Position numbers and translations under genes: made by a program
Notes under the pieces: generated by a model
Told to the model about the DNA's origin: nothing
Databases searched by the model: none
What the model saw: the letters and a program-made list of their open reading frames with translations, nothing else
Shown here: positions 697-25,033 of the stretch, one piece after another
Numbering within the stretch: the first letter of the stretch is position 1
Layout: every line of letters starts with the position of its first letter
Origin: an uncultured Eubacteriales bacterium
GTDB taxonomy: Bacteria > Bacillota > Clostridia > Oscillospirales > Oscillospiraceae
DNA length: 64,000 bases
Direction of reading: 5' to 3'
Assembly (NCBI GenBank): GCA_900317425.1
Contig: ONGR01000004.1
Location: 102,182 to 166,181 of the forward strand

Positions 697-1605
697 TTAT
701 CGCTCCGGTTCGTGGTTTGGATGATCCGGGGTGCTATGGCCGCTGTTATGCTGCTCTGCCTGGGCCTTGGCGGCCGCAAAGCGGTCAGCCATGGGCTGGC
801 GGGACAGATCTGTCTCGGCTTTTTGGGCTCCATGTGAAGAAAGTTGTTGTCGTTCCATTCTCTGCTGCCAGGTCTTGCATGTCTGCATTCTTAAAAACTG
901 TTTGAGAGGTTCGAGGTCAAGAGATCTGTCATAGGTTTCCAGAGCATTGTAATATGCTTTTCGATCTTCTTCAAAAATGATGATAGGGGGGTGATGATGC
1001 GTGACCAAAAGATAGTTCATCAGGAGCCGACCAACACGTCCATTACCGTCTGCAAAGGGGTGGATGTTCTCCAGCTTAGCATGGAGATATGCCGCTGCCG
1101 TCAAAGCCTGCTCATCAGTGATGTCTGAGATCTCCGCCAGCAACTCACTCATTTCCTCCTGCACGTCCTCCGGCAAAGCACCCACCTCATCCACACCGGT
1201 GACATAGTCATGCTTCTTGTATGAGCCGGGCCGCTCGCCGATCTCGTAGCGGTGCATGTCGTAGGTGCCCTGTGTTAGGATGCTATGCAGTTCTAAAACG
1301 AGGGCTTCATCGAGCGGCTCATTATTAGCAAAGGCTGTCAGGAACCGCTGGTAGCCGGCACAAAGGTTTTGTATCTCAAACAGGGTGCGCACGTCACCGG
1401 TATAGGAGGTAACACCACCATGATCGTAGATTTCTCGTGTGTCGTGGTAGGTGATTTTCTCATTCTCAATCTTACCATTGTGGTAGATAAACTTTGCTCC
1501 ATTGCCGTTCATCTCCAAATCCAGATCTGCCGCCGTGTGTACATCCTTGCTTTGCCAGAATTGAAGGATCATATTATATTGACGCTGAATATCAGACTGC
1601 ATCAT
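697..1605 (-). CDS. Fic family protein (second Fic)
   Basis: This 302-residue Fic protein has an intact motif HPFADGNGRVGR, with the catalytic His at residue 182. The upstream stretch GERPGSYKKHDYVTG fits a Fic-domain flap. Two adjacent ATGs begin the frame; AAGGTGA upstream supports them, and the start overlaps the end of the nucleotidyltransferase gene by 14 bp, implying translational coupling. The C-terminal region from about residue 268 is a basic tail (PMADRFAAAKAQAE), then a Ser/His/Pro-rich end. Its final 60 bp are nearly identical in DNA to the end of the neighbouring Fic gene, a sign of duplication. An AMPylating toxin or effector role is inferred from family only. Confidence 0.88.
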   Translation of the reverse strand: MMQSDIQRQYNMILQFWQSKDVHTAADLDLEMNGNGAKFIYHNGKIENEKITYHDTREIYDHGGVTSYTGDVRTLFEIQNLCAGYQRFLTAFANNEPLDEALVLELHSILTQGTYDMHRYEIGERPGSYKKHDYVTGVDEVGALPEDVQEEMSELLAEISDITDEQALTAAAYLHAKLENIHPFADGNGRVGRLLMNYLLVTHHHPPIIIFEEDRKAYYNALETYDRSLDLEPLKQFLRMQTCKTWQQRMERQQLSSHGAQKAETDLSRQPMADRFAAAKAQAEQHNSGHSTPDHPNHEPER

Positions 1606-11946: not shown

Positions 11947-12134
11947 CTCCTGGGATGTATCGTGCTGCTTCGCTGCAGTATCCGGGGCACTTCTTCGGAA
12001 TAACAAAAGAGCAGGCGGTCCACAATTCCGCCGTCTGCAGAGACATAAATGGCAAAAAGACGGTTGAAAAAGTAATAGGCTACTGCAGAGAAAATACCGG
12101 CCACAACTAAGGGGGCCTTGCGTATTTCTTTCAT
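11823..12134 (-). pseudogene. Probable N-terminal stub of a VirD4/PcfC coupling protein
   Basis: The ATG at 12,134 overlaps the PcfB stop, the usual arrangement for the coupling-protein gene. The first 50 residues have the expected short head and hydrophobic segment (APLVVAGIFSAVAYYFFNRLFAIY). After about residue 50 the reading becomes a low-complexity basic peptide that only shadows virB4 in another frame. No Walker motifs follow. I read this as the 5' stub left by a deletion joining virD4 to the region just before virB4. Identity rests on position and weak similarity. Confidence 0.42.
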
Positions 12135-12691
12135 CGCGCGTCCCTCTGACTGGAACGTGCCGCATCACTGACAGCTTTCTCGGTTGTATGTTCCGCGCTC
12201 CGTTCGGCTTTTCGTGCGGCGTTTCGCTCCGCAGCGGCCGCTTTGGCCGCCGCAAAGCGTTCCTTCATGGGCTTGCGCCCAGCGGCCTTATCCCATCCGG
12301 AAACGACCTTTTCAAGGGACTTTTTGACAGCATTAACGTCTCTTCCAGCGAAATAGACGGTATATTGATCGGTGCCGCGCTGGCGGGTAACGTGAAAATC
12401 CACCTGTTGACGGCGGAGTTCCTTCTTAAGTGCTTTCAGATCCTTTTGCGCATCCAAATCAATATTCTCAATGTTGTTGCTGTTTTTTTGGAGTTGACGC
12501 ATTGTCATTTGTTTGCCGGGGGCATGAGATGCTGCAGATTGAAGTAAAGTGCGGGCAAGGGCAATGATGAGCCTTGCGGTCAGCTTGGTTGCCCTGAAAG
12601 ATACGTTGATTGCCTGTGAGCTGGAGCGCAAACCGACTCTGGCGGCAGTCGTAGCGGCTTGCGATAACTGATCTCCTAAAGTTGCTCCCAT
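12131..12691 (-). CDS. PcfB-like (DUF3801) conjugation protein
   Basis: 186 residues from an ATG preceded by GGAGGAG; a longer in-frame upstream extension lacks a ribosome site and is rejected. The core (MTMRQLQK...DLKALKKELRRQQVDFHVTRQ...TVYFAGRDVNAVKKSLEK) matches the DUF3801/PcfB pattern. PcfB of pCF10 is a relaxosome accessory factor that docks with the PcfC coupling protein. The C-terminus has the KPMKERFAAAKAAAAERN tail that recurs in both Fic proteins. The gene overlaps the coupling-protein stub by 4 bp. Confidence 0.8.
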   Translation of the reverse strand: MGATLGDQLSQAATTAARVGLRSSSQAINVSFRATKLTARLIIALARTLLQSAASHAPGKQMTMRQLQKNSNNIENIDLDAQKDLKALKKELRRQQVDFHVTRQRGTDQYTVYFAGRDVNAVKKSLEKVVSGWDKAAGRKPMKERFAAAKAAAAERNAARKAERSAEHTTEKAVSDAARSSQRDAR

Positions 12692-12719
12692 AGAAAGCTC
12701 CTCCTTCTCTTTGTATGTG

Positions 12720-12902
12720 TTATATGGCGTCGAGCAATTTGCAGCTTGTAATAGTGACACCTTCGCGCTGGAGCAAAGCCATAGCCTCCCACAACTGCGG
12801 CTCTCCATTGACCCGCAGCACATAGAATCCGGGAGTTCCATCTGGAAATAGCAGCTCCAGTTTATAGCCAGTCTGAGAGACCGGAGATTTATCTTGTGTC
12901 AT
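12720..12902 (-). CDS. Small conserved-looking protein, unknown function
   Basis: A 60-residue reading frame starting at an ATG with AGGTGA 8 bp upstream; a longer frame from 12,959 has no ribosome site and overlaps the tail region of the adhesin gene. The peptide has alternating charged and hydrophobic residues (LELLFPDGTPGFYVLRVNG) suggesting a small beta-rich fold. It lies between the adhesin and PcfB genes in the same direction. No family recognised. Confidence 0.6.
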   Translation of the reverse strand: MTQDKSPVSQTGYKLELLFPDGTPGFYVLRVNGEPQLWEAMALLQREGVTITSCKLLDAI

Positions 12903-12977
12903 AATGAGTTCACCTGGGAGGGCAGCCAAGTGGCTGCCCTCCCGCGTTATCTGTGCCATGAGCCTATGTGCCGACTG

Positions 12978-15900
12978 TCAGCGAGCCTCGGCGGCCCGCT
13001 TACGGCGCTTGGTGAACCACACGGCGGCAGCGGCGGTGCTGCCGGAGGCGGCCATCAGAGCAGCCCATAGGCCCACATGGAAGGTGTCGCCGGTATTGGG
13101 GTTCTCGGGGAACTCCACCGTCTGATCTTTGTCGTTGATATCGGCATGGACGGCAATCAGACGGTCGTTTTCGTAGACCTCCTCGAAGGCAACCACGCTC
13201 TTGCTGCCCAGGTCAGAGGCGTCGAAGGTAAAGGTCAGCTCCACCTTGCCACTGGCCTTCTCCGGAACAAAGGGGGCCTCGGCGGTGACAGGCTTGCCGT
13301 TCTTATCCAGGAGGGCCTTGCCGGTCTCCTTGACCATCAGTGTGCCCCTCACGGTATATTCCTTACCGGGGATCAGATTATCGTACTTTACCACGTCGGT
13401 CAGCGTGACAGACTCGGTAGGCGTGGCCTTGTGATTGCCGTTTACGGTAGCAGTGGTCTTGACCTCGGGGAAGTGCACCGTCTGATCCTCGTCGTTGATA
13501 TCGGCATGGGTGGCGACCAGGATATCTTCGTGGTACAGATCCTCGAACACAACGGTGCTATGCCCGGCCAGCAGCGAGGCGTTGAACACAAAGGTGACCT
13601 CTACCGTGCCATCGGCGGTCTCCGGGGTAAAGGTGGCCTCGGCGGTAATCTCCTTGCCCTCGGTGGTCTTAAATACCTTACCGGTGCGCTGATCCATCAG
13701 CTTGCCGACTACGGTGTACTCCTTGCCGGGAATCAGATTCTCGTAGGTTACCACGTCGATCAGCGTAACGGACTCAGCGGCCAGGGCAACGTGGCTCCCA
13801 TCCACCGTGGCGGTGGTGCGGATCTTGGGAATGTTGACGCTCTGCTCTCCATCCTCAATGTCCGCATGGACAGCCAGGAGGCGGTCCTTCTCGTACAACT
13901 CCTCGAAGGCAACCACGGTCTTACCGTCCAGTTCAGAGGCGTCGAAAGCGAAGGTAACCTCCACCGTGCCATCGGCGGTCTCCGGGGTAAATGCGGTCTT
14001 TGCAGTAATTTTCTCGCCGTTCTTATCCAGCACAGCCTCGCCGGTCTCCTGGTCCATCAGAACGCCGGTGACAGTATACTTCTTACCGGGAATCAGATTG
14101 GTGTAGGAAACGGTGTCCACCAATGTCAGCTTCTTGTCAGCTTTAGCCATATGGATGCCGCCCTCGCCGGTCAGTGTGGTGCGGATTTCCGGGAAGTGGA
14201 CCGTCTGGCCCTCGTCCTCAATGTCAGTGTGGTCAGCCAGCAGGAGGTCACCTTCATACAGATCCTCGAAGACGACGGTGCTGCGTCCGGTCAGCTCGGA
14301 GGCTTCAAAGGTGAAGGTGACCTCCACACTGCCATCGGCGGTCTCCGGGGTGAACGAGGTCTTTGCAGTAATCTCCTTGCCGTTCTTATCCAGCACAGCC
14401 TCGCCGGTAGCCTGATCCATCAGAACACCGGTGACGGTGTACTTCTTACCGGGGATCAGATTGGTGTAGGTTACCACATCGGTCAGCGTCACCGTCTCGG
14501 CGGCCTGGGCGATATGGCTATCCTCCACGGTGGCGGTGGTGTGGATCTCGGGGAAATGGACGCTCTGCTCCTCGTCCTCAATATCCGCGTGGACCACCAG
14601 CGTCTTGTCATTCTTGGACAGATCCTCAAAGGCAACCACGGTCTGGCCGGCCAGGTCGGAGGCGTCGATCTCAAAGGTCACATCCACGTAGCCGGTGGGA
14701 TCCTCGGGGGTGAAGGTAACAGAAGAAACATAGGGGTTGCCGTCCTTGTCCAGCAGAGCCTCGCCGGTTTCCTTGACCATCAGCGTGCCGGTCAGAGTGT
14801 ACTCGCGGCCGGGGATCAGCTTGTCGTAGAATACCCGGTCCACTAGGGTAACGGTCCCGGAAGCCTGGGCCATGTGGCCATCGTCTACAGTAGCGGTGGT
14901 GTGGATCTCCGGGATCTCCTCGTCCTCCATGTTGATGACCTGGTCCTTCATGTCATCCGTGACGGTAAACTCGATGGGATCGGCCGGCAGCCAGCCCTCC
15001 GGGGCGGACAGCTCGCGCAGAAGGTAGGCGTGGCCTACCTTCAGGCCGCTGACGGCGTGAGGCTCGTCAGCGGAGATCCACTTCTCAACCATTTTGTCGT
15101 TCTCGTAGACCGCCAGCTCGGCACCGGGTACATAAGCGCCGGTGTAATCGACCTTGGCCACGGACAGCACCTTGTCGATCATGACGACAGGCTGCACCTC
15201 GGCGGTATCCTGGATCGTGAACTGGATCTCGGTGGCCTTGACGTAACCCAGGGGTGCGGTATCTTCGCGCAGGGTGTAAGTCTCGCCGATCAGCAGATTG
15301 TAGATCATGTGAGGCTCCTCGGCGGAAGTCCATTCGTCAACGACGTTGCCGTCCTTGTCCATAACGGACATCTTGGCACCGGGAAGCTCCTTGCCTCCCA
15401 TGTCCTGCTTGGAGATCTGTACCTTGGTGGGCTCGTTGGGGAACTCCACGGGGATGATCTTCATGTTGTACTCATCAATGGCGGCGTCAGGTACCACGTC
15501 GAAGTAGACGGGATCCTGGCTCAGCACATAGCCATCCGGGGCATTTTGCTCAATCAGATAATAACCGTAGTTATAGGTCAGCTCAGCGGGCACCCGGACA
15601 ATGCCGTCTTTGCCGGTATACCAGGTATCATCACCAAAGAAGGTGATCAGCTGGTCGTTGGGATCATACAGCTTGAAACCGACACCCTCCACGGGGATGA
15701 TTTCGCCGGTACGAGCGTCCAACTTGACCACCTTGAGATAACCGGAGAAGGTCTGGTTGTTGAGGATAAAGCTATAGGTCTTGCCGTCCTCCTGGATATT
15801 GACAATAAAGTCATCCACGAAGGGAGAGGATGCAAAACCACTGATCTGATGGACCACATACTTGCCGTAGGGCAGCATCTTGGAAGTAGCAAAGCCATCC

Positions 15901-17915
15901 TCATCAATGGTCAGCAGATCCCGCTCAGACTCCTTGGCGGCGTCATAGCTGCCAACGGATGCCAGATAGAGCTCAAACTGCGCGCCCACCTCGGGGGTGG
16001 CGGGGCCGGTCTTACCCAGATCGGAGTGCTTGACAATATGAATGCAGCCCTCGATGACCTCGTTAGAGATTACGGTGTCCTGGTTGCGGTCAGCGTTGTC
16101 CAGAGACAGATCATAGATCTGACCGTCTTCCGTGACGGAAAATTCCTGGGAGATGTGTCCCTTGGTGGTGTAGCCCGTCGGGGGTGCTGTCTCTACAATG
16201 GCAAAGCGACCATAGGGCAATAGATCAGCAGTGGTTTCGGCAACACCGTCGTCGCCGGTGGCAAAGGAATAGACCACATCATCCTGGTTGTAGGTCTCAC
16301 CATTTACGATGACGGGGTAATCATTGAGGGAGATGATATCAAACTGTGCGCCAGCCAGCGTGGCGTCGCCCTGGGCGATATCCCCGGTCTCGGCATCATA
16401 CTTGCGGACCTTTACGCCGCCCCGAATCAGAGCATTGTCAAAAGAGAAGGAACCGGTCTCACCGGGATTGACGGTGATGGTCTGGGGCTCCTGGGGCTTG
16501 TACCGGTTGGGTACCGTCTCGACGGCGGTGTAATCACCGGGGTACAGATCGGTCAGCTCCACGTTGCCGTTGGCATCGGTCTTGACGGTCTGGCTATAGT
16601 TATTGGGACCGGTGATGGTGAACTCAATGCCCTCCACCTTGCCATCTTCAGAGGTCTTGATCAACTTGGCCTTGCCGGTGTCCGGCTCCTCGGTGATGGT
16701 GGGGGCGTTGTAGGTATCAACCAGCTCCGTAGAGGCTCCGCCAGACGTAATCTGCACCACATACTTGGTGCTGTTGATCTGATAGCCGGCAGGGGCCTTA
16801 GTTTCCTGAATGACGATGGTGCCCAGAGGCAGGGTGGCGATCCCTCTTGAGTCAGTGTAGAATTCGTCGCCACTTACTTTCCAGTTAGAGTGAAATTCGA
16901 TTTCTCCATCGCTGTCTGTCTTAAACACCCAGGTCCGGGCAGTTGCTCCGTTGCTCTCGGCTTCGGCGGCAGTGCTGTACTGGCCGTCATAATATTTGAC
17001 GGTGAACTCCGCGCCTTCCAGAGAGAGCGCGTTGGAGGCGGGAGCGCCACCTGTCTTGCTGTCCGCTTTGCGCAGCAGGATGCCCACAGGGTCGGACTGC
17101 GGATAATCCGTGACGTTGCCGGTGGCGGTCTTGCCGGACTCCACCTTGATGGAGATAATGGCGGGATTCAGCGCAAAGCCCTTCGGAGCTGTCAGCTCGC
17201 GGAGATAATAGGTTGCAGGATGCAAGCCCGTGATAGTGTTTGCGGTGCCATCCGCGTTGGTGGTCAGGGTCCCTACGCGGTTGCTGTCGCTCTGAGCGTT
17301 GGCCTCACTGGTGTAGACGCCGTACACGGCACCGGCCAGAGAGTAGCAGCTGTTACCGCTGGTGATGGTGGTATTGGCGCTGGATTTGGTCAGAGTCAGA
17401 TCTCCGGTGGGCTTGTCGCCCCAAACCAGCATGATCTGGCCACCGTCAGACGGCCTTGCGGTGATGTAGGCCATAAAGCTGGCGGGTGCATTGGCGGCGT
17501 TGGCAGCAGCGTGATCCAAATACCAACGGATATCGCTGTTCATGACGTTATTGTTTTTTCCGATGTATTCAGCCACCGCATGATGAATGTTATAGAGTTC
17601 GGTGGCGTCATTGGTCTGGGAGGCGTAGTAAGCCATCCCAAGGATAACGTCGTCTGTCTGCCCCAGCGTGACCGTGGCGCCCACCCCTCCGGGATTGGCA
17701 TATGGGTCCGCGCAAATGCCGTGGAGCTGCTGGGTACCGTTGGTCAGCTCAAAAGCATAGTTGCTGGGGATGTCTCCGTACCAGCTGAGTACCTTGTAGC
17801 TGGTGATTTTATAGGTGTCGCTTTCCGCGTGTGCAACGTTGACGCCCGGCGCCATAAGGCCCAGGGACATGACCAACGCAAGCAGCAGCGCGGTGATTTT
17901 CTTTGTCAGTTTCAT
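12978..17915 (-). CDS. Giant thioester/CnaB/VaFE-repeat surface adhesin, sortase-anchored
   Basis: 1,645 residues. Signal peptide 1-31 (cleavage after AHA) is followed by a thioester-type domain (about 35-170), with Cys in HGICADPY and a Gln in GGQIMLVW as the likely cross-linking pair. A series of SpaA/CnaB-like beta-sandwich domains (about 175-1,000) and five VaFE repeats of about 120 residues (about 1,003-1,605; TVVAFEDL-type motifs) follow. The end is a sorting signal NPNTGD, a hydrophobic stretch and KRRKR. The NPxTG motif suits the class B sortase encoded upstream. It probably gives covalent adhesion to host or partner-cell surfaces. It is cargo of the conjugative element. Confidence 0.9.
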   Translation of the reverse strand: MKLTKKITALLLALVMSLGLMAPGVNVAHAESDTYKITSYKVLSWYGDIPSNYAFELTNGTQQLHGICADPYANPGGVGATVTLGQTDDVILGMAYYASQTNDATELYNIHHAVAEYIGKNNNVMNSDIRWYLDHAAANAANAPASFMAYITARPSDGGQIMLVWGDKPTGDLTLTKSSANTTITSGNSCYSLAGAVYGVYTSEANAQSDSNRVGTLTTNADGTANTITGLHPATYYLRELTAPKGFALNPAIISIKVESGKTATGNVTDYPQSDPVGILLRKADSKTGGAPASNALSLEGAEFTVKYYDGQYSTAAEAESNGATARTWVFKTDSDGEIEFHSNWKVSGDEFYTDSRGIATLPLGTIVIQETKAPAGYQINSTKYVVQITSGGASTELVDTYNAPTITEEPDTGKAKLIKTSEDGKVEGIEFTITGPNNYSQTVKTDANGNVELTDLYPGDYTAVETVPNRYKPQEPQTITVNPGETGSFSFDNALIRGGVKVRKYDAETGDIAQGDATLAGAQFDIISLNDYPVIVNGETYNQDDVVYSFATGDDGVAETTADLLPYGRFAIVETAPPTGYTTKGHISQEFSVTEDGQIYDLSLDNADRNQDTVISNEVIEGCIHIVKHSDLGKTGPATPEVGAQFELYLASVGSYDAAKESERDLLTIDEDGFATSKMLPYGKYVVHQISGFASSPFVDDFIVNIQEDGKTYSFILNNQTFSGYLKVVKLDARTGEIIPVEGVGFKLYDPNDQLITFFGDDTWYTGKDGIVRVPAELTYNYGYYLIEQNAPDGYVLSQDPVYFDVVPDAAIDEYNMKIIPVEFPNEPTKVQISKQDMGGKELPGAKMSVMDKDGNVVDEWTSAEEPHMIYNLLIGETYTLREDTAPLGYVKATEIQFTIQDTAEVQPVVMIDKVLSVAKVDYTGAYVPGAELAVYENDKMVEKWISADEPHAVSGLKVGHAYLLRELSAPEGWLPADPIEFTVTDDMKDQVINMEDEEIPEIHTTATVDDGHMAQASGTVTLVDRVFYDKLIPGREYTLTGTLMVKETGEALLDKDGNPYVSSVTFTPEDPTGYVDVTFEIDASDLAGQTVVAFEDLSKNDKTLVVHADIEDEEQSVHFPEIHTTATVEDSHIAQAAETVTLTDVVTYTNLIPGKKYTVTGVLMDQATGEAVLDKNGKEITAKTSFTPETADGSVEVTFTFEASELTGRSTVVFEDLYEGDLLLADHTDIEDEGQTVHFPEIRTTLTGEGGIHMAKADKKLTLVDTVSYTNLIPGKKYTVTGVLMDQETGEAVLDKNGEKITAKTAFTPETADGTVEVTFAFDASELDGKTVVAFEELYEKDRLLAVHADIEDGEQSVNIPKIRTTATVDGSHVALAAESVTLIDVVTYENLIPGKEYTVVGKLMDQRTGKVFKTTEGKEITAEATFTPETADGTVEVTFVFNASLLAGHSTVVFEDLYHEDILVATHADINDEDQTVHFPEVKTTATVNGNHKATPTESVTLTDVVKYDNLIPGKEYTVRGTLMVKETGKALLDKNGKPVTAEAPFVPEKASGKVELTFTFDASDLGSKSVVAFEEVYENDRLIAVHADINDKDQTVEFPENPNTGDTFHVGLWAALMAASGSTAAAAVWFTKRRKRAAEAR
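13090..14910 (-). repeat. Five in-frame VaFE repeats of about 362 bp
   Basis: Within the adhesin gene, a unit beginning with a TTATV-like segment and containing a VAFE- or VFED-type motif recurs near 14,900, 14,540, 14,178, 13,815 and 13,453, a spacing of about 362 bp. DNA identity between units is high (for example the shared stretch encoding LIPGKKYTVTGVLMDQ). The copy number is therefore prone to change by recombination and to collapse in short-read assembly. Confidence 0.85.
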
Positions 17916-18102: not shown

Positions 18103-18900
18103 TTACTTGGTCGCGCCGCAGCGGGAGCATTTGTAGCCAACAACGGTGCGTTCGGTGGTTGTGCCGGTGACAACCTCTTTCCACTCAGAATGGTATGCTG
18201 AACTCGAGCAACCGGTTGCGTTTCGATGGTCTTTCATGCTGCCCCTGCTAAGGAGTATACCGGTTACATCCATACCGCAGGTGTTACAGATTTCGAACTC
18301 TTGCATCTCTGTCTGCTCCACCTCGTGCTCCTCGTAGATTTCCTCCCAGGCATGTCCCAAGGCGGAGGTGTAACTGTCGGTATAGCTGTCGCCGCAGGAG
18401 CAGGCGTGGGTGGTATAGCCGCCCTCGGTGCAGGTGGGGTCTACAGTATAATCGCTGTAGCTGTGATAATGCACCGGCTGGGCGGGCTGTGGCTCTGTGG
18501 CGCTGCTGCCAGCTCCGGAGGAGCCGGAACCGTTGGAACCAGTGGAACCGGAGTTTCCGCTGGAGTTGCTTTCGCCAGATCCGCTCGAATTACCGGAGGA
18601 ATAGTTACCACCGTTGCCGGTAGAGGAACCGGAGCTGCTGTTGGAGGTGTTGGGTGTGGTGTCCTCGCCGGTGATGGAACTGCTTTCATTGTTGCCCGGC
18701 GTGGGGTAATTCGCCGACCCGGTCGGCGAATTATTCTTTGTGGTACTGTCGTCGGGTTTGCTGTTGCTTTTAGGCTCTGCCTTCTGGGTCTGATCGGTTT
18801 TGCCGTTCTCGTCGACCTGTGCCGTCTGACCGCCGCAGCTGACCAGCACCAGCAGCATGGCCACGGCACAGAGCAGCGCCATGATTTTCTTCAGTTTCAT
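18103..18900 (-). CDS. Lipoprotein with Ser/Gly/Asn linker and Cys-pair repeats
   Basis: The ATG at 18,900 has AAAGGAGG upstream. Signal peptide with lipobox LVSC (Cys at about residue 22) gives a membrane lipoprotein. A long low-complexity Ser/Gly/Asn/Thr linker (about 45-140) spans the wall. The C-terminal domain has CSCGDSYTD, CNTCGMD and CSRCGATK Cys pairs, zinc-ribbon-like. One copy of the element's palindrome sits in frame here, encoding NSPTGSAN. It lies beside sortase B and the adhesin, so a cell-surface role in attachment or assembly is likely. No specific function is recognised. Confidence 0.8.
   Translation of the reverse strand: MKLKKIMALLCAVAMLLVLVSCGGQTAQVDENGKTDQTQKAEPKSNSKPDDSTTKNNSPTGSANYPTPGNNESSSITGEDTTPNTSNSSSGSSTGNGGNYSSGNSSGSGESNSSGNSGSTGSNGSGSSGAGSSATEPQPAQPVHYHSYSDYTVDPTCTEGGYTTHACSCGDSYTDSYTSALGHAWEEIYEEHEVEQTEMQEFEICNTCGMDVTGILLSRGSMKDHRNATGCSSSAYHSEWKEVVTGTTTERTVVGYKCSRCGATK
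18707..18733. repeat. Palindrome copy 1 (parS-like candidate), inside the lipoprotein gene
   Basis: Perfect arms TAATTCGCCGAC and GTCGGCGAATTA around centre CCG. It reads in frame as part of NSPTGSAN. Three further copies occur at 19,135, 22,254 and 23,615. Confidence 0.9.
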
Positions 18901-18938
18901 AGGATCGCCTCCTTTGCGTAAGTCTTTTCTTTGCCTGT

Positions 18939-18967
18939 AGTATATCATAGGTTTTGAGAGTTGTTAA
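18939..18967 (-). promoter_or_regulatory. Promoter of the lipoprotein gene
   Basis: On the minus strand TTAACA, 17 bp spacer, TATACT, 38 bp before the lipoprotein ATG. It fits a housekeeping sigma factor. Confidence 0.65.
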
Positions 18968-19134
18968 GGTGAAATTTGATGCTATGGGTTGCGATGAATT
19001 ACCACATCCCCACATGGATCAAGATAATGATGCCGCAGCAAAACCACACTCCGGCGAACAGCAGAACGGACTTGCTGATTCAAACAGGTCACGCGAATAC
19101 TGTGACCCACGATGGGCCAATCAAGTAGAAGTTT

Positions 19135-19161
19135 TAATTCGCCGACTCAGTCGGCGAATTA
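19135..19161. repeat. Palindrome copy 2, intergenic after sortase B
   Basis: Arms TAATTCGCCGAC and GTCGGCGAATTA around centre TCA. It lies between the sortase stop and the lipoprotein promoter in a 200-bp non-coding gap. Confidence 0.9.
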
Positions 19162-19169
19162 TCAGTCGT

Positions 19170-19910
19170 TTATGAAATGGGGACGAGAACGCCCAACACT
19201 ACGTAGCGGGCGTTCTCAAACTCAAAGGAGCAGGTGGACAGGGTCAGGATCGGCCCCTCTGCCGCGATGTCATGATTCGGGTAGAAGGTGGATCTGCCGA
19301 TATACTTCGCCAGACACTCCGGTGGGATCTCGTTTTGGTAAATGTTGGCGTCGACCTCTACGATGCACCCAGCAAACAGATCCACCCGGTACTTTTGTGT
19401 CGGCGTAGTCAGATACAAAAACGGATGCTCATCATAGAAGCTCTGATCCTTGTACTTTGTCAGGGTGGCAAACATGGTGCCGCTCCGCATGTGATGACCG
19501 TAAATGATGCTGTTCTCGTCGGAAAAATCAGCGCGGCACCGGTAGTCCAGGAACAGAGTCCCGTTGTCATTCCACGTGCCGTCCAGCAAGCGATAAAGAT
19601 AGTAGTTGTTGTCGTGGCCCTGCACCACTGGGTAATTAATCCGTGTCCCGGGCACATAGAGCCAGGCTACCACGTCGCCATTAAGCTGACGTAGTGCATC
19701 AAAATCTACCTCCAGCGGCTGTTCTTCTTCCTCTGGTAATTCGTGTGGATCTGTCTCCAGCGGTTCCGGCGTATGGACAAATTGGGCTGCCGTTGCTGCC
19801 ATCTCCTCGCTGCGGCGCTTCTCCAGCAGATATCCACCGATTCGATAAACTGAATAGGCGAACACACCCAGCAGGACGATCAGTAGGAAATAATACACTG
19901 ATTTCTTCAT
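19170..19910 (-). CDS. srtB: Class B sortase
   Basis: The 246-residue protein starts at the ATG that overlaps the upstream small gene by 4 bp (ATGA). One N-terminal membrane anchor (about 5-25) is followed by a sortase fold. The catalytic triad is visible: His in YGHHM near residue 140, Cys in LSTCSF near 223 and Arg in ENARYVV near 232. Class B membership fits the pattern VAWLYVPGTRINYPVVQ. It probably anchors the NPNTG adhesin encoded downstream. It is the only sortase in the window. Confidence 0.93.
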   Translation of the reverse strand: MKKSVYYFLLIVLLGVFAYSVYRIGGYLLEKRRSEEMAATAAQFVHTPEPLETDPHELPEEEEQPLEVDFDALRQLNGDVVAWLYVPGTRINYPVVQGHDNNYYLYRLLDGTWNDNGTLFLDYRCRADFSDENSIIYGHHMRSGTMFATLTKYKDQSFYDEHPFLYLTTPTQKYRVDLFAGCIVEVDANIYQNEIPPECLAKYIGRSTFYPNHDIAAEGPILTLSTCSFEFENARYVVLGVLVPIS

Positions 19911-20095
19911 GGCATGAGCCCCCGACAGCTCATGGGTGTAGTGCCGGTACAATAGATGCTGGTCTCATATGACGGCGGCCCAACGATCCCGTCTGGGGTG
20001 ATGACATACACCGTTCCGTCATTCAGTTCGCAGCAGATTTCCCGCACGTCGGTGACGCGCAGAGATCTGTCTTCCTCTGTAATAGATACACGCAT
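19907..20095 (-). CDS. Small protein, unknown function
   Basis: 62 residues from an ATG with GGAGGAGG 6 bp upstream. The peptide MRVSITEEDRSLRVTDVREI is followed by a beta-rich stretch GTVYVITPDGIVG. Translationally coupled to sortase B by a 4-bp overlap. Small proteins like this are common between regulatory genes in these elements. No family assigned. Confidence 0.65.
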   Translation of the reverse strand: MRVSITEEDRSLRVTDVREICCELNDGTVYVITPDGIVGPPSYETSIYCTGTTPMSCRGLMP

Positions 20096-20125
20096 GGTTG
20101 CCTCCTCCAAAATGGCAAACGCCCC

Positions 20126-20284
20126 TCAATGTGAGCGGCAATCTTCCTTTCCTTCGGACATTAATGTGGGACAATTGTAGCAATCCTTGTCCGCTTTGTG
20201 TGCAATGCTTAGGAGAGCCATCGTGAATATTCCAATCCACGCCCCAATTAATAAACCGATCACAAGATAGATTATGTTGGACAT
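20126..20284 (-). CDS. DUF3789-like small membrane protein
   Basis: 52 residues, beginning MSNIIYLVIGLLIGAWIGIF. One transmembrane helix (about 4-26) is followed by a Cys-containing polar tail (DCYNCPT). Size, the Gly-rich helix and the position beside toprim and parB genes match the DUF3789 family of conjugative elements. AAGGTGA lies 6 bp before the ATG. Function unknown. Confidence 0.7.
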   Translation of the reverse strand: MSNIIYLVIGLLIGAWIGIFTMALLSIAHKADKDCYNCPTLMSEGKEDCRSH

Positions 20285-20290
20285 TACGGG

Positions 20291-20488
20291 TCACCTTCTT
20301 AATTCTTCATATTTTTGCGCAAGCTCGCCGGCAGAAGGGGATTTGCCCCAGCGGTGCCAAGAGCCATCTGGCTCCAGTGTATAGAGATAATACATGTGCC
20401 GATCAGGCGGGCTGGTAATGATATACAGGACCTCCCGGTTTTTGCCCTGGCTCTCCAGCCACACAATCTCGCCTTTTGGGTATTGCAT
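20291..20488 (-). CDS. Small protein, unknown function
   Basis: 65 residues starting MQYPKGEIVWLES. Its ATG overlaps the stop codon of the toprim gene (TAATG), so it is probably translated by re-initiation. A longer upstream frame inside the toprim gene is not supported. Aromatic-rich beta pattern (HMYYLYTLEPDGSWHRWGK). No family recognised. Confidence 0.65.
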   Translation of the reverse strand: MQYPKGEIVWLESQGKNREVLYIITSPPDRHMYYLYTLEPDGSWHRWGKSPSAGELAQKYEELRR

Positions 20489-21444
20489 TACTCGAAATCC
20501 TTTCTTTTCGTCAGCGTAACAAGGCACTCATTCCAGTCTTTTCCGGAGGGTGGCAGGAGATCGACAATCTGACCGGTGAAGGACACAGTCAGCGGCAACT
20601 GCTTGGCAAAGTTGCGCCCTGCCTCATCGTTGTCAAAGCACATTTTAATGGTCTGAATCTCCGGATGATGGGCCAACCACTTGCTCACGGTGCCGGGAGC
20701 CGGATTGCCGGCAAGTGCCAACCGATGAGTTTTCTGCCACTCAATGCCGGCCTGCTTCTCCAGCGTTGCGTGACTGATGGCGTCGATGGGTGCCTCAAAT
20801 ATGGCCACCATGTCAGCACCGGGTTTTCCAGGTAATTCCCAAACCACAGATTTGTCCGAGCCTGGTACAATACCCTTAAACTGGCTGCCATAGTTTATGC
20901 CCCGCAGGATGGCGGCGCAAGGAACGCCGTGCCCATCATAGGAGATGAACACGGCGTTCCGAATAACTTTATTGTCTGCAGTGGGTCGGCAGCTGATATA
21001 GACCCGCTTTTGCCGGAGCAGATCGCGGACGATTTCCCCGTCACAACACCGGCGCTCGGTCAGATATTTGACCAGGATACCAGTAGCGTCAGATGCTGGG
21101 GGAGGCAGTGTGAATTCTACTTCCGGCTCAGAAACAGCCGTATATGCGGTCACGGGCAAACATGCGCCATCTTCGCCGGAGAGCCGCAGCACGGCATCCA
21201 CCATACTGCGGCCCTCGTATTCACGGCAAAATTCAAAAGCGCGGCCGGAGAGATGTCGACTGTTCCAGTACCAGCGGCCGTCGGACAGGAATATCATGCT
21301 GTCATGTTCGCGCAGATGATACCGATCACCGTGGCCTACGAGATCATACCCCTGCCGCCTTGCGTATTCCAATGCGCTGGCAGCCATAGCAGTCTCATAT
21401 TGGTGTTGGGTGAAGTATTTTTTTCCGCTTCGAGATATGGGCAT
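20488..21444 (-). CDS. DUF3991/toprim-domain protein (primase-like)
   Basis: 318 residues. The N-terminal half fits the DUF3991 zinc-less primase-associated region (RQGYDLVGHGDRYHLREHDS), and the C-terminal part is toprim-like: EAPIDAISHA supplies the Glu motif and CFDNDEAGR the DxD motif. Such proteins are found in Tn916/Tn1549-type elements next to parAB genes and are thought to act in DNA replication or transfer. Intact reading frame. Confidence 0.85.
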   Translation of the reverse strand: MPISRSGKKYFTQHQYETAMAASALEYARRQGYDLVGHGDRYHLREHDSMIFLSDGRWYWNSRHLSGRAFEFCREYEGRSMVDAVLRLSGEDGACLPVTAYTAVSEPEVEFTLPPPASDATGILVKYLTERRCCDGEIVRDLLRQKRVYISCRPTADNKVIRNAVFISYDGHGVPCAAILRGINYGSQFKGIVPGSDKSVVWELPGKPGADMVAIFEAPIDAISHATLEKQAGIEWQKTHRLALAGNPAPGTVSKWLAHHPEIQTIKMCFDNDEAGRNFAKQLPLTVSFTGQIVDLLPPSGKDWNECLVTLTKRKDFE

Positions 21445-21467
21445 GGCTTATCTCCGTTCCTTTATTG

Positions 21468-21788
21468 TCAGCTGGCAGACTTTGCGGTCAAGCATAGAGA
21501 GTAACGGAAAGGGTGGCGCAGGAGCCGGAGACCTTTTTTGACCAGAAAAAGGGCACTTCGCCGGCTGATCCGGAGGGAAGCGCCAATTTCTGAACTTGAC
21601 ATATGCTGCTGATACCGCAGAGAAATTGCGGTTCTCTCACGTTCCGGGAGAGTATCCAGGATGTTCTGCATTTTACCAGGCGTTTTATCCACGTGAAGCG
21701 GAAGGTCATTCGACTGGAAAATGTCCATCAGAAGGTTGACCGGATACTCATGCTTCTTGTATGTGTGAATGCCTATGTAATCGTTCAT
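21468..21788 (-). CDS. Sigma-70 region 4-like helix-turn-helix protein
   Basis: 106 residues. The middle (ILDTLPERERTAISLRYQQHMSSSEIGASLRISRRSALFLVKKGLRLLR) is a typical region 4 helix-turn-helix, without a region 2. It overlaps the parB start by 4 bp. Probably a regulator of element genes of the kind often annotated as sigma factor-like. Target unknown. Confidence 0.75.
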   Translation of the reverse strand: MNDYIGIHTYKKHEYPVNLLMDIFQSNDLPLHVDKTPGKMQNILDTLPERERTAISLRYQQHMSSSEIGASLRISRRSALFLVKKGLRLLRHPFRYSLCLTAKSAS

Positions 21789-22744
21789 GTCCTACTCCTT
21801 TCTACCTCTCCGAGGTACTTCCAGATTACAGCCTCTATCCGTTCCAGCAGCTCCGGGTCGTCCTTGTGGATCTTCAAACGGCCATCAAAGACATCGGGCA
21901 AGGCAAAACGGACCTTCTTCTGCTTGGCTTCTGTTCCTTCTTCGTGTGTTTGACGTAGGGAAAGAACATCCTCTACATCTTCTTTTGTCAAATTGCCAGA
22001 AGCTTCATAGACCTCCCGGATCAGCTTGGCGGACGCCTCGTTGATCTTGAGCTTTGGGCTTCTCTGCATGACGATCAAAATGGGCTGCTGTGCGTCATTT
22101 GAGATAAACGCGAGCTGATAGCCTGCCTTGACAGGGATGCGACGCTCATCAACCAGATCCAGCAGTTCCGGGAGGAGCTCCGACAGCTTGATGTACATGC
22201 GTAATTGATCGCCACTGACGCCGAAACGTTCTGCGGCCAGATCGTCAGCGCGTAAATTCGCCGACCCGGTCGGCGAATTTCCTGCGGGTCTGCCGGCGCG
22301 AATGTTAAACAGCTCTGTTGTGGCATCCAGATGGGCTTTATATGTGTTGGCTTTCTCGCTTGGGAGCCAGCCAGGGCGTTGGATGTTGCTCTCCGCCATG
22401 AGTATAATGGCGTCTGCATCAGACAAGGGCTCCACAATACAAGGGACGTGCGCCAGCCCGGCCTCTTTGGCGGCCAGCCTGCGGCGGTGGCCGGCGATGA
22501 TCTCGTATTCACCGGCCACAGTGGGGTGCGGCCGCACGATCAGCGGCTCCTTGACGCCTTTGTCCCGGATGCTGGATACCAGCGCCCTGAAGTCATCGTT
22601 GTCGATCAGTTTAAATGTGTGATTGCCAAAGTCGTGCAGCTCCGCCAGGCCGATTTCCTTTGTGTTGGACTTTGCGGCGGGCTTGAGAATGGTATCCCAA
22701 AAATCGGGGGGCTTCGGTAAAGCCTCGCGCTGCGTCTCGGTCAT
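21785..22744 (-). CDS. parB: ParB-family partition protein
   Basis: 319 residues. The ParB N-terminal nuclease-like fold includes EIIAGHRRRLAAKEAG and EPLIVRPH. A central helix-turn-helix with DDLAAERFGVSGDQLRMYIKLSELLPELLDLVD is the DNA-binding part. Copy 3 of the palindrome lies in frame just before it, encoding NSPTGSAN. It is expected to bind centromere-like sites and to segregate the excised element with ParA. 30 bp after parA. Confidence 0.92.
   Translation of the reverse strand: MTETQREALPKPPDFWDTILKPAAKSNTKEIGLAELHDFGNHTFKLIDNDDFRALVSSIRDKGVKEPLIVRPHPTVAGEYEIIAGHRRRLAAKEAGLAHVPCIVEPLSDADAIILMAESNIQRPGWLPSEKANTYKAHLDATTELFNIRAGRPAGNSPTGSANLRADDLAAERFGVSGDQLRMYIKLSELLPELLDLVDERRIPVKAGYQLAFISNDAQQPILIVMQRSPKLKINEASAKLIREVYEASGNLTKEDVEDVLSLRQTHEEGTEAKQKKVRFALPDVFDGRLKIHKDDPELLERIEAVIWKYLGEVERSRT
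22254..22280. repeat. Palindrome copy 3, inside parB
   Basis: Arms AAATTCGCCGAC and GTCGGCGAATTT around centre CCG. The central 25 bp are identical to copy 1. In the same reading phase as copy 1, it encodes NSPTGSAN. Confidence 0.9.
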
Positions 22745-22774
22745 AGATCATCCCTCCTTCCAGTCACCGCAGCT

Positions 22775-23545
22775 TTACCCGCGGGAGACAATCTCTGCCG
22801 CCAGCGCGCGAAACCTGTTGCCAAGATCGCTGCCGCGCTGCTGCAGCACGGTGACGCCGGCGCGTTTGGCATTGGCGACGTCAGCTCGGTTGGGGATGAT
22901 CGTCTTATAGACCAGGCTGCCGTATTCCTGACGGAGAAGCTGCTCGGCCTTCTGAGCCTCGCTGCGTACCATGGCCGCCCGGGATATTACGATGCCGTTG
23001 AACTCCAGACCCGGGTTAAGGCTGTCCTGGACACGTCGGATCGTTTCGCGGAGCTCGGTCAGTCCGTTGATGGAGTAGTCTTCCGGCTCCACCGGCACCA
23101 AAACCTCATTGCTGGCTGCCAGGGCGTTCACCACAAGCAGATCCAGACTCGGCTTGTTGTCCAGCAGTACATAGTCGTATTTCGTGAAATAGGGGTGCCG
23201 GAAGATCCGTGCAAGGACGGTACCGCTGTCCTGGTCATTTGCCAGAATGCTGGGCGCGGTGCTGAGGCCGGAAACAGCAGGGATATAGTCCAACTTTTCC
23301 CGGTCGCTGTAGCGGATGAAATCCTCAACTTGAAGGTGGATCTGCCGGGTGGCAAAGTAGATCATGTCAACGGTGGAATAACCGTTGTAATCACGACCGT
23401 ACAGGGTGTCGGTGGCGTTGTGCTGCTGATCCAGATCGACAATGAGGACACGGAAGCCTCGCTCTGCCAGTGCTGCACCCAGAGAGAGGGTTGTGGTGGT
23501 TTTGCCGCAACCACCTTTTTGGTTGACAATGCTGATGATTTTCAT
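22775..23545 (-). CDS. parA: ParA-family partition ATPase
   Basis: 256 residues. Deviant Walker A KGGCGKTTTT (residues 10-19) with the signature Lys, Walker A-prime VLIVDLDQQHNAT, and Walker B YVLLDNKPSLD are present. It is a Soj-like ATPase that works with ParB in segregation of the circular element. The gene follows the attenuator and palindrome copy 4. The ATG has GGAGG upstream. Confidence 0.95.
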   Translation of the reverse strand: MKIISIVNQKGGCGKTTTTLSLGAALAERGFRVLIVDLDQQHNATDTLYGRDYNGYSTVDMIYFATRQIHLQVEDFIRYSDREKLDYIPAVSGLSTAPSILANDQDSGTVLARIFRHPYFTKYDYVLLDNKPSLDLLVVNALAASNEVLVPVEPEDYSINGLTELRETIRRVQDSLNPGLEFNGIVISRAAMVRSEAQKAEQLLRQEYGSLVYKTIIPNRADVANAKRAGVTVLQQRGSDLGNRFRALAAEIVSRG

Positions 23546-23614
23546 GGGGGGTTCCTCCTTATTTTTCCTGGCGTATACCAGGGATTTAACTTTGCTAACT
23601 GCGATCCAAACCGG

Positions 23615-23657
23615 CGTCGTTTTAATTTGCCGACCCAGTCGGCGAATTAAAACGACG
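23615..23657. repeat. Palindrome copy 4, extended 43-bp inverted repeat upstream of parA
   Basis: Arms CGTCGTTTTAATTTGCCGAC and GTCGGCGAATTAAAACGACG around CCA, with one mismatch (T23628 against G23644). It lies 70 bp before parA, in the position expected for a centromere that also controls parAB. Confidence 0.92.
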
Positions 23658-23838: not shown

Positions 23839-24819
23839 TTAAAGCTCATCCAAAAGGTTGACCGTATCTGTATAATCCTTCGGCATAAAGTGGATGTAAT
23901 AGTCATAGGTGAATTTTACAGTAGAATGGCCGAGGATCTCACTGACCTTCTTAATATCGGCTCCTTTGCGGAGAAGATTTGAAGCAAAAGTATGTCGCAA
24001 GGCGTGGACGTTGTACCAGTATTCCCTGGGATAGCCACAGTTTCGCAGTATCCGCAGCAACGTTCGCTCAATATTGCCGATGAGAAGTGGCTGACCGGTG
24101 CGGGAACGTGCTATAAAGCCTCGGCGACCGGTCAATTCGGCAAGACGTAAAAAGGCATCATGGGCGGTTTGGTTGATTGGAACGTACCGTATACCGGATG
24201 ACGTCTTTGTGCTGTCCTGCACAATCTGCACAAATTCGTAGCTACCGTCTGGCTTGCGCTGCTTTACCCGGACACTGTTCTTATCAATGTTTATCATTCT
24301 GCCATGCAAGTCGACGTCCCGCCAAGTGAGAGCCAACAGCTCGCCGACGCGCATTCCGGTATTGAGCAATATGATAATCAGATCCCCCTGCGGATAGACC
24401 CGTGTACCATTCCCATGTGTCCGTAGACACTCTTTTTGAATGACTGCTACCTGCTCTGGAAGAAAGAAACGAACATGGCGGTATTTTGATCTCCCACCGG
24501 ATGGGACGCGTACTCCCAGAACAGGGTCGTTTGAGAGCTTTCCGTGAAGACGATAGTACCGATAGCAACAACCAACGGCCTCCACAGCCTTCTTAATTGT
24601 GGAATTTGCGTATCCCTTTTGGAGAAGCTGCTGGATAAGGTTTTCAATATCATTGTTGCATAGGAGTTTTGCGGGGGTATTTCCAATATATGGAAATACC
24701 TGGAATTTGCAGGTGTTTTCCTTGCGGTCAAAGCTGGCGGGTTTAAGGTTGGGACGCTCAATTTCATTAAGCCAAGCAATCATGATTTCTTCAACAGTTG
24801 TTGTCTTTTTGATTACCAT
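23839..24819 (-). CDS. int: Tyrosine recombinase integrase of the element
   Basis: 326 residues with an N-terminal SAM-like core-binding domain and a C-terminal catalytic domain. Catalytic residues visible: Arg in NTGMRVGEL near 158, HALRH near 271, LGHST near 298, and Tyr in YDYYIH near 304. It lies 68 bp from the tRNA-Cys junction, the usual arrangement for site-specific integration into a tRNA gene. No excisionase was recognised nearby. Confidence 0.93.
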   Translation of the reverse strand: MVIKKTTTVEEIMIAWLNEIERPNLKPASFDRKENTCKFQVFPYIGNTPAKLLCNNDIENLIQQLLQKGYANSTIKKAVEAVGCCYRYYRLHGKLSNDPVLGVRVPSGGRSKYRHVRFFLPEQVAVIQKECLRTHGNGTRVYPQGDLIIILLNTGMRVGELLALTWRDVDLHGRMINIDKNSVRVKQRKPDGSYEFVQIVQDSTKTSSGIRYVPINQTAHDAFLRLAELTGRRGFIARSRTGQPLLIGNIERTLLRILRNCGYPREYWYNVHALRHTFASNLLRKGADIKKVSEILGHSTVKFTYDYYIHFMPKDYTDTVNLLDEL

Positions 24820-24887: not shown

Positions 24888-24932
24888 CTGCAAAACCCTC
24901 ATTCCCCGGTTCAAATCCGGGTGTCACCTCCA
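24888..24932 (+). tRNA. tRNA-Cys(GCA) 3' half at the element-chromosome junction
   Basis: The sequence matches the second half of a tRNA-Cys: anticodon loop CTGCAAA (anticodon GCA at 24,890-24,892), 3' anticodon stem ACCCT, T stem CCCGG with loop TTCAAAT and CCGGG, acceptor strand TGTCACC, discriminator T, CCA. Upstream bases do not pair as a 5' anticodon stem, so the 5' half is absent here. The other att copy should lie at the far left end of the element, outside the window. Confidence 0.88.
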
Positions 24933-24937
24933 GATGA

Positions 24938-24971: not shown

Positions 24972-24995
24972 GCAGCACCTGTTGCTGACTGCACA

Positions 24996-25033
24996 TGAGA
25001 AAAGCCTCCGGATCATCCGGAGGCTTTTCTCAT
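24996..25033. terminator. Bidirectional terminator
   Basis: TGAGAAAAGCCTCCGGAT and its complement around a single C, with A and T runs on both sides. It includes the stop codon of the gamma-carbonic anhydrase-like gene and serves both strands. Confidence 0.85.

Follow-up and report, generated by a model that had tools for sequence, protein, structure and literature searches.

What is a palindrome doing that recurs around a pair of partition genes and twice lies in frame within a protein-coding sequence? This question is raised by a stretch of 64,000 nucleotides from an uncultured Eubacteriales bacterium (the window; C37:102182-166181 of a genome of 39 contigs and 1,874,781 bases), which holds most of a 35,718-bp element (C37:91398-127115) integrated at tRNA-Cys, with a 47-bp direct repeat at both ends, and carrying parA and parB. 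Comparison of parB genes indicates that the palindrome is very probably the cognate binding site on DNA for the ParB of the element itself, encoded together with the helix-turn-helix (HTH) that reads it.

The palindrome consists of two 12-bp arms around one central base (a 25-bp core), with 3 nt between GCCGAC and GTCGGC. A sequence-only reading had placed four copies near 18,707, 19,135, 22,254, and 23,615; all are present with exact 25-bp cores, both coding copies (in a lipoprotein-like open reading frame [ORF] and in parB, on the minus strand) read NSPTGSAN in one phase, and the fourth indeed extends to 43 bp ahead of parA (23615-23657), its arms being 95% complementary over that length. 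The AATTC/GAATT flanks ascribed to the copies hold in general, except that the left flank of copy 4 is AATTT. A search of the window with the 25-bp pattern, allowing up to 3 mismatches, gave these 4 matches, all exact (0.00 expected; 0/100 shuffles), while the bare core GCCGACNNNGTCGGC was exact at the same 4 positions only, its 23 other window matches, with 1 or 2 mismatches, lying elsewhere and being unrelated. The clustering of four copies within 5 kb around parAB is correct for the window, and six more copies lie to its left: a search of the whole genome returned 10 places, all within C37:91508-125829 and inside the one 35.7-kb element, and a reversed control returned 0. As a rough figure, ten independent copies placed at random would all fall inside the element with a probability of about 6e-18. 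At least three of the ten are in frame within ORFs, in the same phase, and one copy in the left operon forms the C-terminus, NSPTESAN, of a 44-amino-acid ORF. The window pattern (up to 1 mismatch) was absent from the 399 other genomes of the family examined, and the window's own arms had no exact match in viral contigs. The leftmost minus-strand series of small ORFs occupies L008:9500-11830, several of them preceded by or ending in a palindrome.

Rickettsia palindromic elements are inserted in many unrelated genes genome-wide and are absent from homologues of those genes. A mobile palindrome of this type, spreading in frame through genes, would be in keeping with the ten copies in one element and with the shared phase of those lying in ORFs, and the sequence-only reading had invoked both this likeness and insertable in-frame modules. 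All ten copies, however, are confined to 35.7 kb of a 1.87-Mb genome, eight other genomes yielded a single copy each, and the position in parB turned out to be held by different palindromes in homologues. In an alignment of 29 homologues, the place of NSPTGSAN was occupied by NSPQVAAN, TSPQVAAK, TSSQVGTK, TCAQVGHK, and the like, with no insertion pattern, and 24 of the first 29 homologues had a palindrome with a score of at least 9 at the same codons, mostly with different arms. The sites of two homologues are TTCGCCGCAANTTGCGGCGAA and TTCGTCCCAANTTGGGACGAA. Since same-codon palindromes with other arms are found in homologues, NSPTGSAN is no fresh insertion in parB, and the module idea was abandoned for this gene along with the Rickettsia comparison; we consider a mobile palindrome highly improbable.

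The set of homologues was then enlarged by sequences from viral contigs and from additional genomes of the order; a ParA search of genome contigs returned distant ParAs (30-41% identity) and served as the source of a few distant parBs only. Among 118 of 164 distinct homologue sequences, counted without clustering for relatedness after the other 46, without both regex flanking anchors, had been dropped, 79 parB genes (the window's included) had a linker palindrome scoring at least 10, versus none of 2,220 equal-length control windows in the same genes. Against shuffles of synonymous codons, the palindrome was found in 78 of the 118 real sequences versus 45 of 23,600 shuffled ones. The centre lay in codon phase 0 in all but one of the 107 palindromes with a score of at least 7.

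The arms of the palindrome vary with the HTH of the ParB that carries it. In a partial Mantel test of HTH against half-site, given the rest of ParB, r was 0.447 (0/999 permutations; 106 sites), while for eight other ParB segments it ranged between -0.10 and 0.20, the segments that follow the helix, and that include the position of residue 201, giving the highest of these values. A residue-to-base code was determined from the 97 pairs left after removal of identical HTH-plus-half-site pairs, with the residues taken at the 9th and 5th places from the end of the helix motif and at the 19th place after the motif. Counted from the Spo0J alignment with the published numbering, these three co-varying residues would correspond to Caulobacter 174, 178, and 201; HMMER alignments to Spo0J have no gaps across them. 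Base -4 follows the 9th-from-end residue (Asp with G, 29/29; Asn with C, 21/21; Thr with C, 8/8; Ser with C, 4/4; Glu with A, 9/10), and Arg or Lys at this 174-like position is always accompanied by G at -5 (15/15 and 4/4). Base -3 follows the 5th-from-end residue (Arg with C, 84/84; Asn, Lys, Met, or Leu with A, 13/13), and base -2 the 19th residue after the motif (Arg, Lys, Gln, or Pro with C, 32/32, Arg alone 26/26; Asn, Thr, Ser, or Gly with A, 63/65, with G in 2 of the 32 Asn cases). The window ParB obeys the code, having D179 with G at -4, M183 with A at -3, and K206 with C at -2. Position 6 of the published site is, we take it, the second base from the dyad. Experiments by Jalal et al. 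2020 (PMC7383237) traced ParB/Noc specificity to residues 173 and 201 and showed that Arg201 prefers C at position 6 (the G201R/cytosine-6 switch); N178 contacts parS in the same work, so that the pairing of Arg with C at -2 is the same rule as that published for Noc.

When applied to 13 further plasmid or phage parBs, the code was correct for all 35 callable bases (13/13, 13/13, and 9/9), 4 bases at -4 being uncallable. These parBs were taken irrespective of their likeness to the training set: the HTH of 2 is identical to a training one, and for the other 11 the nearest identity was 0.67 to 0.95. The 13 were scored out of 22 further ORFs, and the nine unscored ones were inspected separately. 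Of those, L384, L058, and L011 obey the applicable rules, L384 having at the 174-like position a Met that the code does not cover. In L011, a parB from a Lachnoclostridium metagenome-assembled genome, the linker palindrome is out of phase and the rules are still obeyed, which suggests that it is the DNA, not the peptide, that counts. The mobile palindrome discussed above is largely refuted by the covariation between arms and residues.

The palindrome lies in transcribed sequence and some copies look terminator-like in a consensus scan, and both facts would suit a conserved RNA hairpin in parB mRNA serving as an attenuator, pausing, or processing site. We analyzed the base pairs of the 106 in-phase sites (the single off-phase one of the 107 was left out). 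Pairs -12 to -1 around the single central base were complementary in 91 to 106 of the sites, and complementarity reached the 1-nt centre (98/106 at -1). At the core bases, -4 to -8, all four pair types were used and 91 to 102 of the 106 sites were complementary; the mismatches there comprised 1 G-T, 15 A-C, and 26 others, so G-U was not favoured over A-C and no wobble preference was seen. G-U pairs would be tolerated in a stem formed by RNA, and such a stem could not be closed over a single base, so these figures fit a palindrome acting as double-stranded DNA. With the covariation being, moreover, with DNA-reading residues, the hairpin was rejected, and we rate it very unlikely.

Site and reader also appear to change together. 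Among ParB pairs whose identity outside the HTH is 80% or more, the mean HTH identity was 0.95 for those with the same half-site (36 pairs) and 0.52 for those whose half-sites differ in at least 3 bases (125 pairs). In two pairs, L107/L100 and L104/L100, DNA identity per 10-codon block was 83-100% along the gene and fell with sharp edges to 43-73% over 40 codons (about 120 bp) comprising the palindrome and the HTH; here the site and its reader look like having been replaced jointly. A role as the target of some other protein that the element encodes, such as an integrase, resolvase, or methyltransferase, was considered, as such genes are present. It was rejected and is scarcely credible: the arms follow the HTH residues of ParB even between ParBs that are otherwise nearly identical.

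The model of the conserved part of ParB had a predicted local distance difference test (pLDDT) score of 88.4 and matched the structures of Spo0J, ParB-parS, Noc, and KorB. NSPTGSAN (residues 156-163, model 116-123) falls in the only poorly predicted stretch, with pLDDT below 50 at model segments 111-113 and 117-122, between the cytidine triphosphatase (CTPase)-type domain and the HTH; in such a disordered linker many codons should be tolerated. The features of a ParABS system found here are parA beside parB, a ParB_N CTPase-type fold plus an HTH, and palindromic cis sites near parAB, which, to judge from the covariation, would be read by that HTH.

We also determined how many copies of its own site each related genome carries, allowing up to 1 mismatch, a limit that more diverged sites would escape. 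A single place, inside parB, was found in 8 genomes (G032, G174, G033, G235, G182, G196, G031, and G667), and none in 12 other genome entries, whose parBs probably carry other arms. The same-genus genome G125 had four, all inside about 16 kb; one of them had 2 mismatches. Since eight genomes have one copy, G125 four, and the present element ten, the additional copies seem to have been added later, and the copies outside parB here (lipoprotein-like ORF, 44-amino-acid ORF, intergenic) may be a secondary spread.

Two neighbouring parB-type genes, each with a different internal palindrome, were seen in L139 and L140 (e.g., L140:8224 and 10382). In L123, a second, different palindrome (11962-11990; GGGAACTCAGTTCCC core) lies beside an extra copy at 11998 and upstream of another ParB-like ORF (12117-13304).

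Several observations weigh against reading the palindrome as the partition site of a coevolving ParB. Besides the dropping of 46 sequences and the unclustered counting noted above, no linker palindrome was found in the divergent relatives L115, L118, L170, L180, L183, and L194, nor in L010, L012, L013, L389, and L395 (scores 2 to 4), which are the other five of the nine unscored ORFs besides L385 and the three that obey the rules; because several divergent relatives lack it, the palindrome marks part of the ParB family. Arg (A 7, C 7, T 1) and Lys (C 2, A 2) leave base -4 unfixed, and among the unscored ORFs L385 violates the -3 rule (Gln with G) and has Asn with G at -2. The mutual information of the code was reached in 0, 0, 3, and 47 of 2,000 permutations within blocks alike outside the HTH, and the columns with 3 and 47 are weakened by this, being partly confounded with ancestry. 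In L143/L146, a pair that has diverged more along its whole length, there are no sharp cassette edges. Finally, LG-R/K-GL, the consensus ParA-binding motif of the ParB N-terminus in PMC12704722, is absent from the window ParB; we therefore term the site parS-like and do not claim ParABS function as proven.

This absence would be in line with a ParB site that is not a centromere but part of an operator network, with KorB-, Noc-, or BisD-like regulation or autoregulation of parAB. The positions of some copies point the same way: L008:11785 lies just downstream of a promoter-like sequence (L008:11863-11835), other left-operon copies lie between genes ahead of ribosome-binding-site-like sequences, and one copy is upstream of parA. 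On the other side, parA adjoins parB, and the sole copy found in eight genomes sits in the middle of parB, which is odd for an operator and fine for a clamp-loading site. We regard a purely regulatory role as unlikely, while giving it a real chance. Of the sequence-only claim that these are ParB centromere sites, the first half is strongly supported by the coevolution of palindrome and residues, and the second is likely, parA being adjacent, although the consensus motif is absent.

The system could have arisen as follows. The copy inside parB would be ancestral and conserved, placed in disordered-linker codons directly before the HTH that reads it. With reader and target within about 120 bp, the two could diverge jointly or be exchanged as one cassette, an exchange by which a new and matching pair of ParB and site would arise in a single step. 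Eight of the elements tested genome-wide would have kept only the parB copy, and the window element would have multiplied it to ten, among them copies in the leftmost operon's 5' leader, before ribosome-binding-site-like sequences, and upstream of parA. ParB would bind these sites and probably load there as a clamp, with ParA, to segregate the element in its excised or replicating form; the sites may also tune the element's operons, for instance by repression. More broadly, we think it probable that a large family of ParBs on Bacillota mobile elements keeps its centromere within the gene of the reader, in a cassette of about 120 bp made up of site and HTH, that recombination of whole cassettes creates new, non-cross-reacting partition specificities (incompatibility groups) in one step with the match kept, and that a residue-to-base code of ParB can be read from natural sequences. 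It has long been asked how a protein that binds DNA and the site it binds can alter jointly with no unfit intermediate on the way, and for partition systems the question bears on the incompatibility of plasmids and integrative and conjugative elements. Here lock and key are apparently kept in one gene, with about 100 distinct matched pairs (97) and a readable specificity code, so that candidate centromeres of unannotated mobile elements could be predicted from the parB sequence alone.

The features of the element are listed below. An integrase and att repeats at a tRNA gene are present, as expected of an integrative element, and TraG-type, ArdC-like, and CHAP/M23 proteins are encoded inside it; among the 10 proteins scanned, the TraG-type P-loop protein was the only transfer-related one, no search having been aimed at relaxases. 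The element also encodes a Fic/DOC-family protein (window 697-1605), and a very long, repeat-rich ORF for a secreted protein (window 12978-17915) adjoins the sortase and lipoprotein-like genes. On a Monoglobus plasmid, a SpaA-type pilin gene is likewise found near parAB. Just outside attR lies a terminator-like, perfect 19-bp inverted repeat with a 1-nt centre (window 24995-25033).

Coordinates of the palindrome copies and of the genes and ends of the element (window positions unless prefixed)
Feature	Position	Strand	Remark
Palindrome copy 1	18708..18732		In frame within lipoprotein-like ORF (NSPTGSAN)
Palindrome copy 2	19136..19160		Intergenic, downstream of sortase gene
Palindrome copy 3	22255..22279		Inside parB, codons 156-163 (NSPTGSAN), directly before HTH codons
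Palindrome copy 4	23615..23657		43 bp (25-bp core 23624-23648); upstream of parA, in the interval that separates it from the integrase gene
Six further copies	L008: 9508, 10503, 10824, 11309, 11458, 11785		Left of window
parB	21785..22744	-	ParB_N domain, disordered linker with palindrome, HTH
HTH/recognition-helix codons	22184..22252	-	Residues 165-187, including D179 and M183
K206 codon	22127..22129	-	Aligned with Caulobacter G201; column covarying with base -2
parA	22775..23545	-	AAA_31 ATPase (E 5e-45); adjoins parB
Tyrosine integrase	23839..24819	-	Of the element, beside attR
Lipoprotein-like ORF	18103..18948	-	Ser/Gly-rich, holds copy 1; no Pfam match
Sortase gene	19170..19952	-	
attR	24888..24934		47-bp repeat of tRNA-Cys 3' end
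attL	L008:9398-9444		47-bp repeat of tRNA-Cys 3' end; outside window

A literature search including PMC12207404, PMC3899335, and PMC7022226 returned, among the papers listed, no description of parB genes with covarying internal sites, which is weak evidence of absence, as subscription journals were thinly covered. Bacillus subtilis offers a precedent for a parS within parB; a variable site that tracks and moves with its reader has, within the literature searched and to our knowledge, not been described.

The palindrome resembles Rickettsia palindromic elements in being palindromic and in frame in coding sequence, and differs from them in being confined to one element, in occupying a homologous position in parB, and in covarying with a DNA-binding domain. 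In RK2 KorB and the other ParB-type regulators of plasmids, no site co-encoded within the gene is known to us. In B. subtilis, parS-359 is one of several chromosomal copies of a universal 16-bp parS and is not tied to a variable reader. It is located inside the parB (spo0J) gene, according to PMC4442127, and is thus, like the site described here, a ParB site within parB coding sequence; unlike parS-359, the present site has arms that vary with the HTH, lies directly before the HTH codons, and is the only copy found in eight genomes. The closest likeness in the reading of the DNA is to the switch between ParB/parS and Noc/NBS (NBS, Noc-binding site), as set out in PMC7383237: the reading region is the same (174, which neighbours R173; 178; and 201), and so is the rule that pairs Arg201 with C. 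In that case, two fixed specificities belong to chromosomal paralogues, whereas here there are many, each with its site encoded in the same gene.

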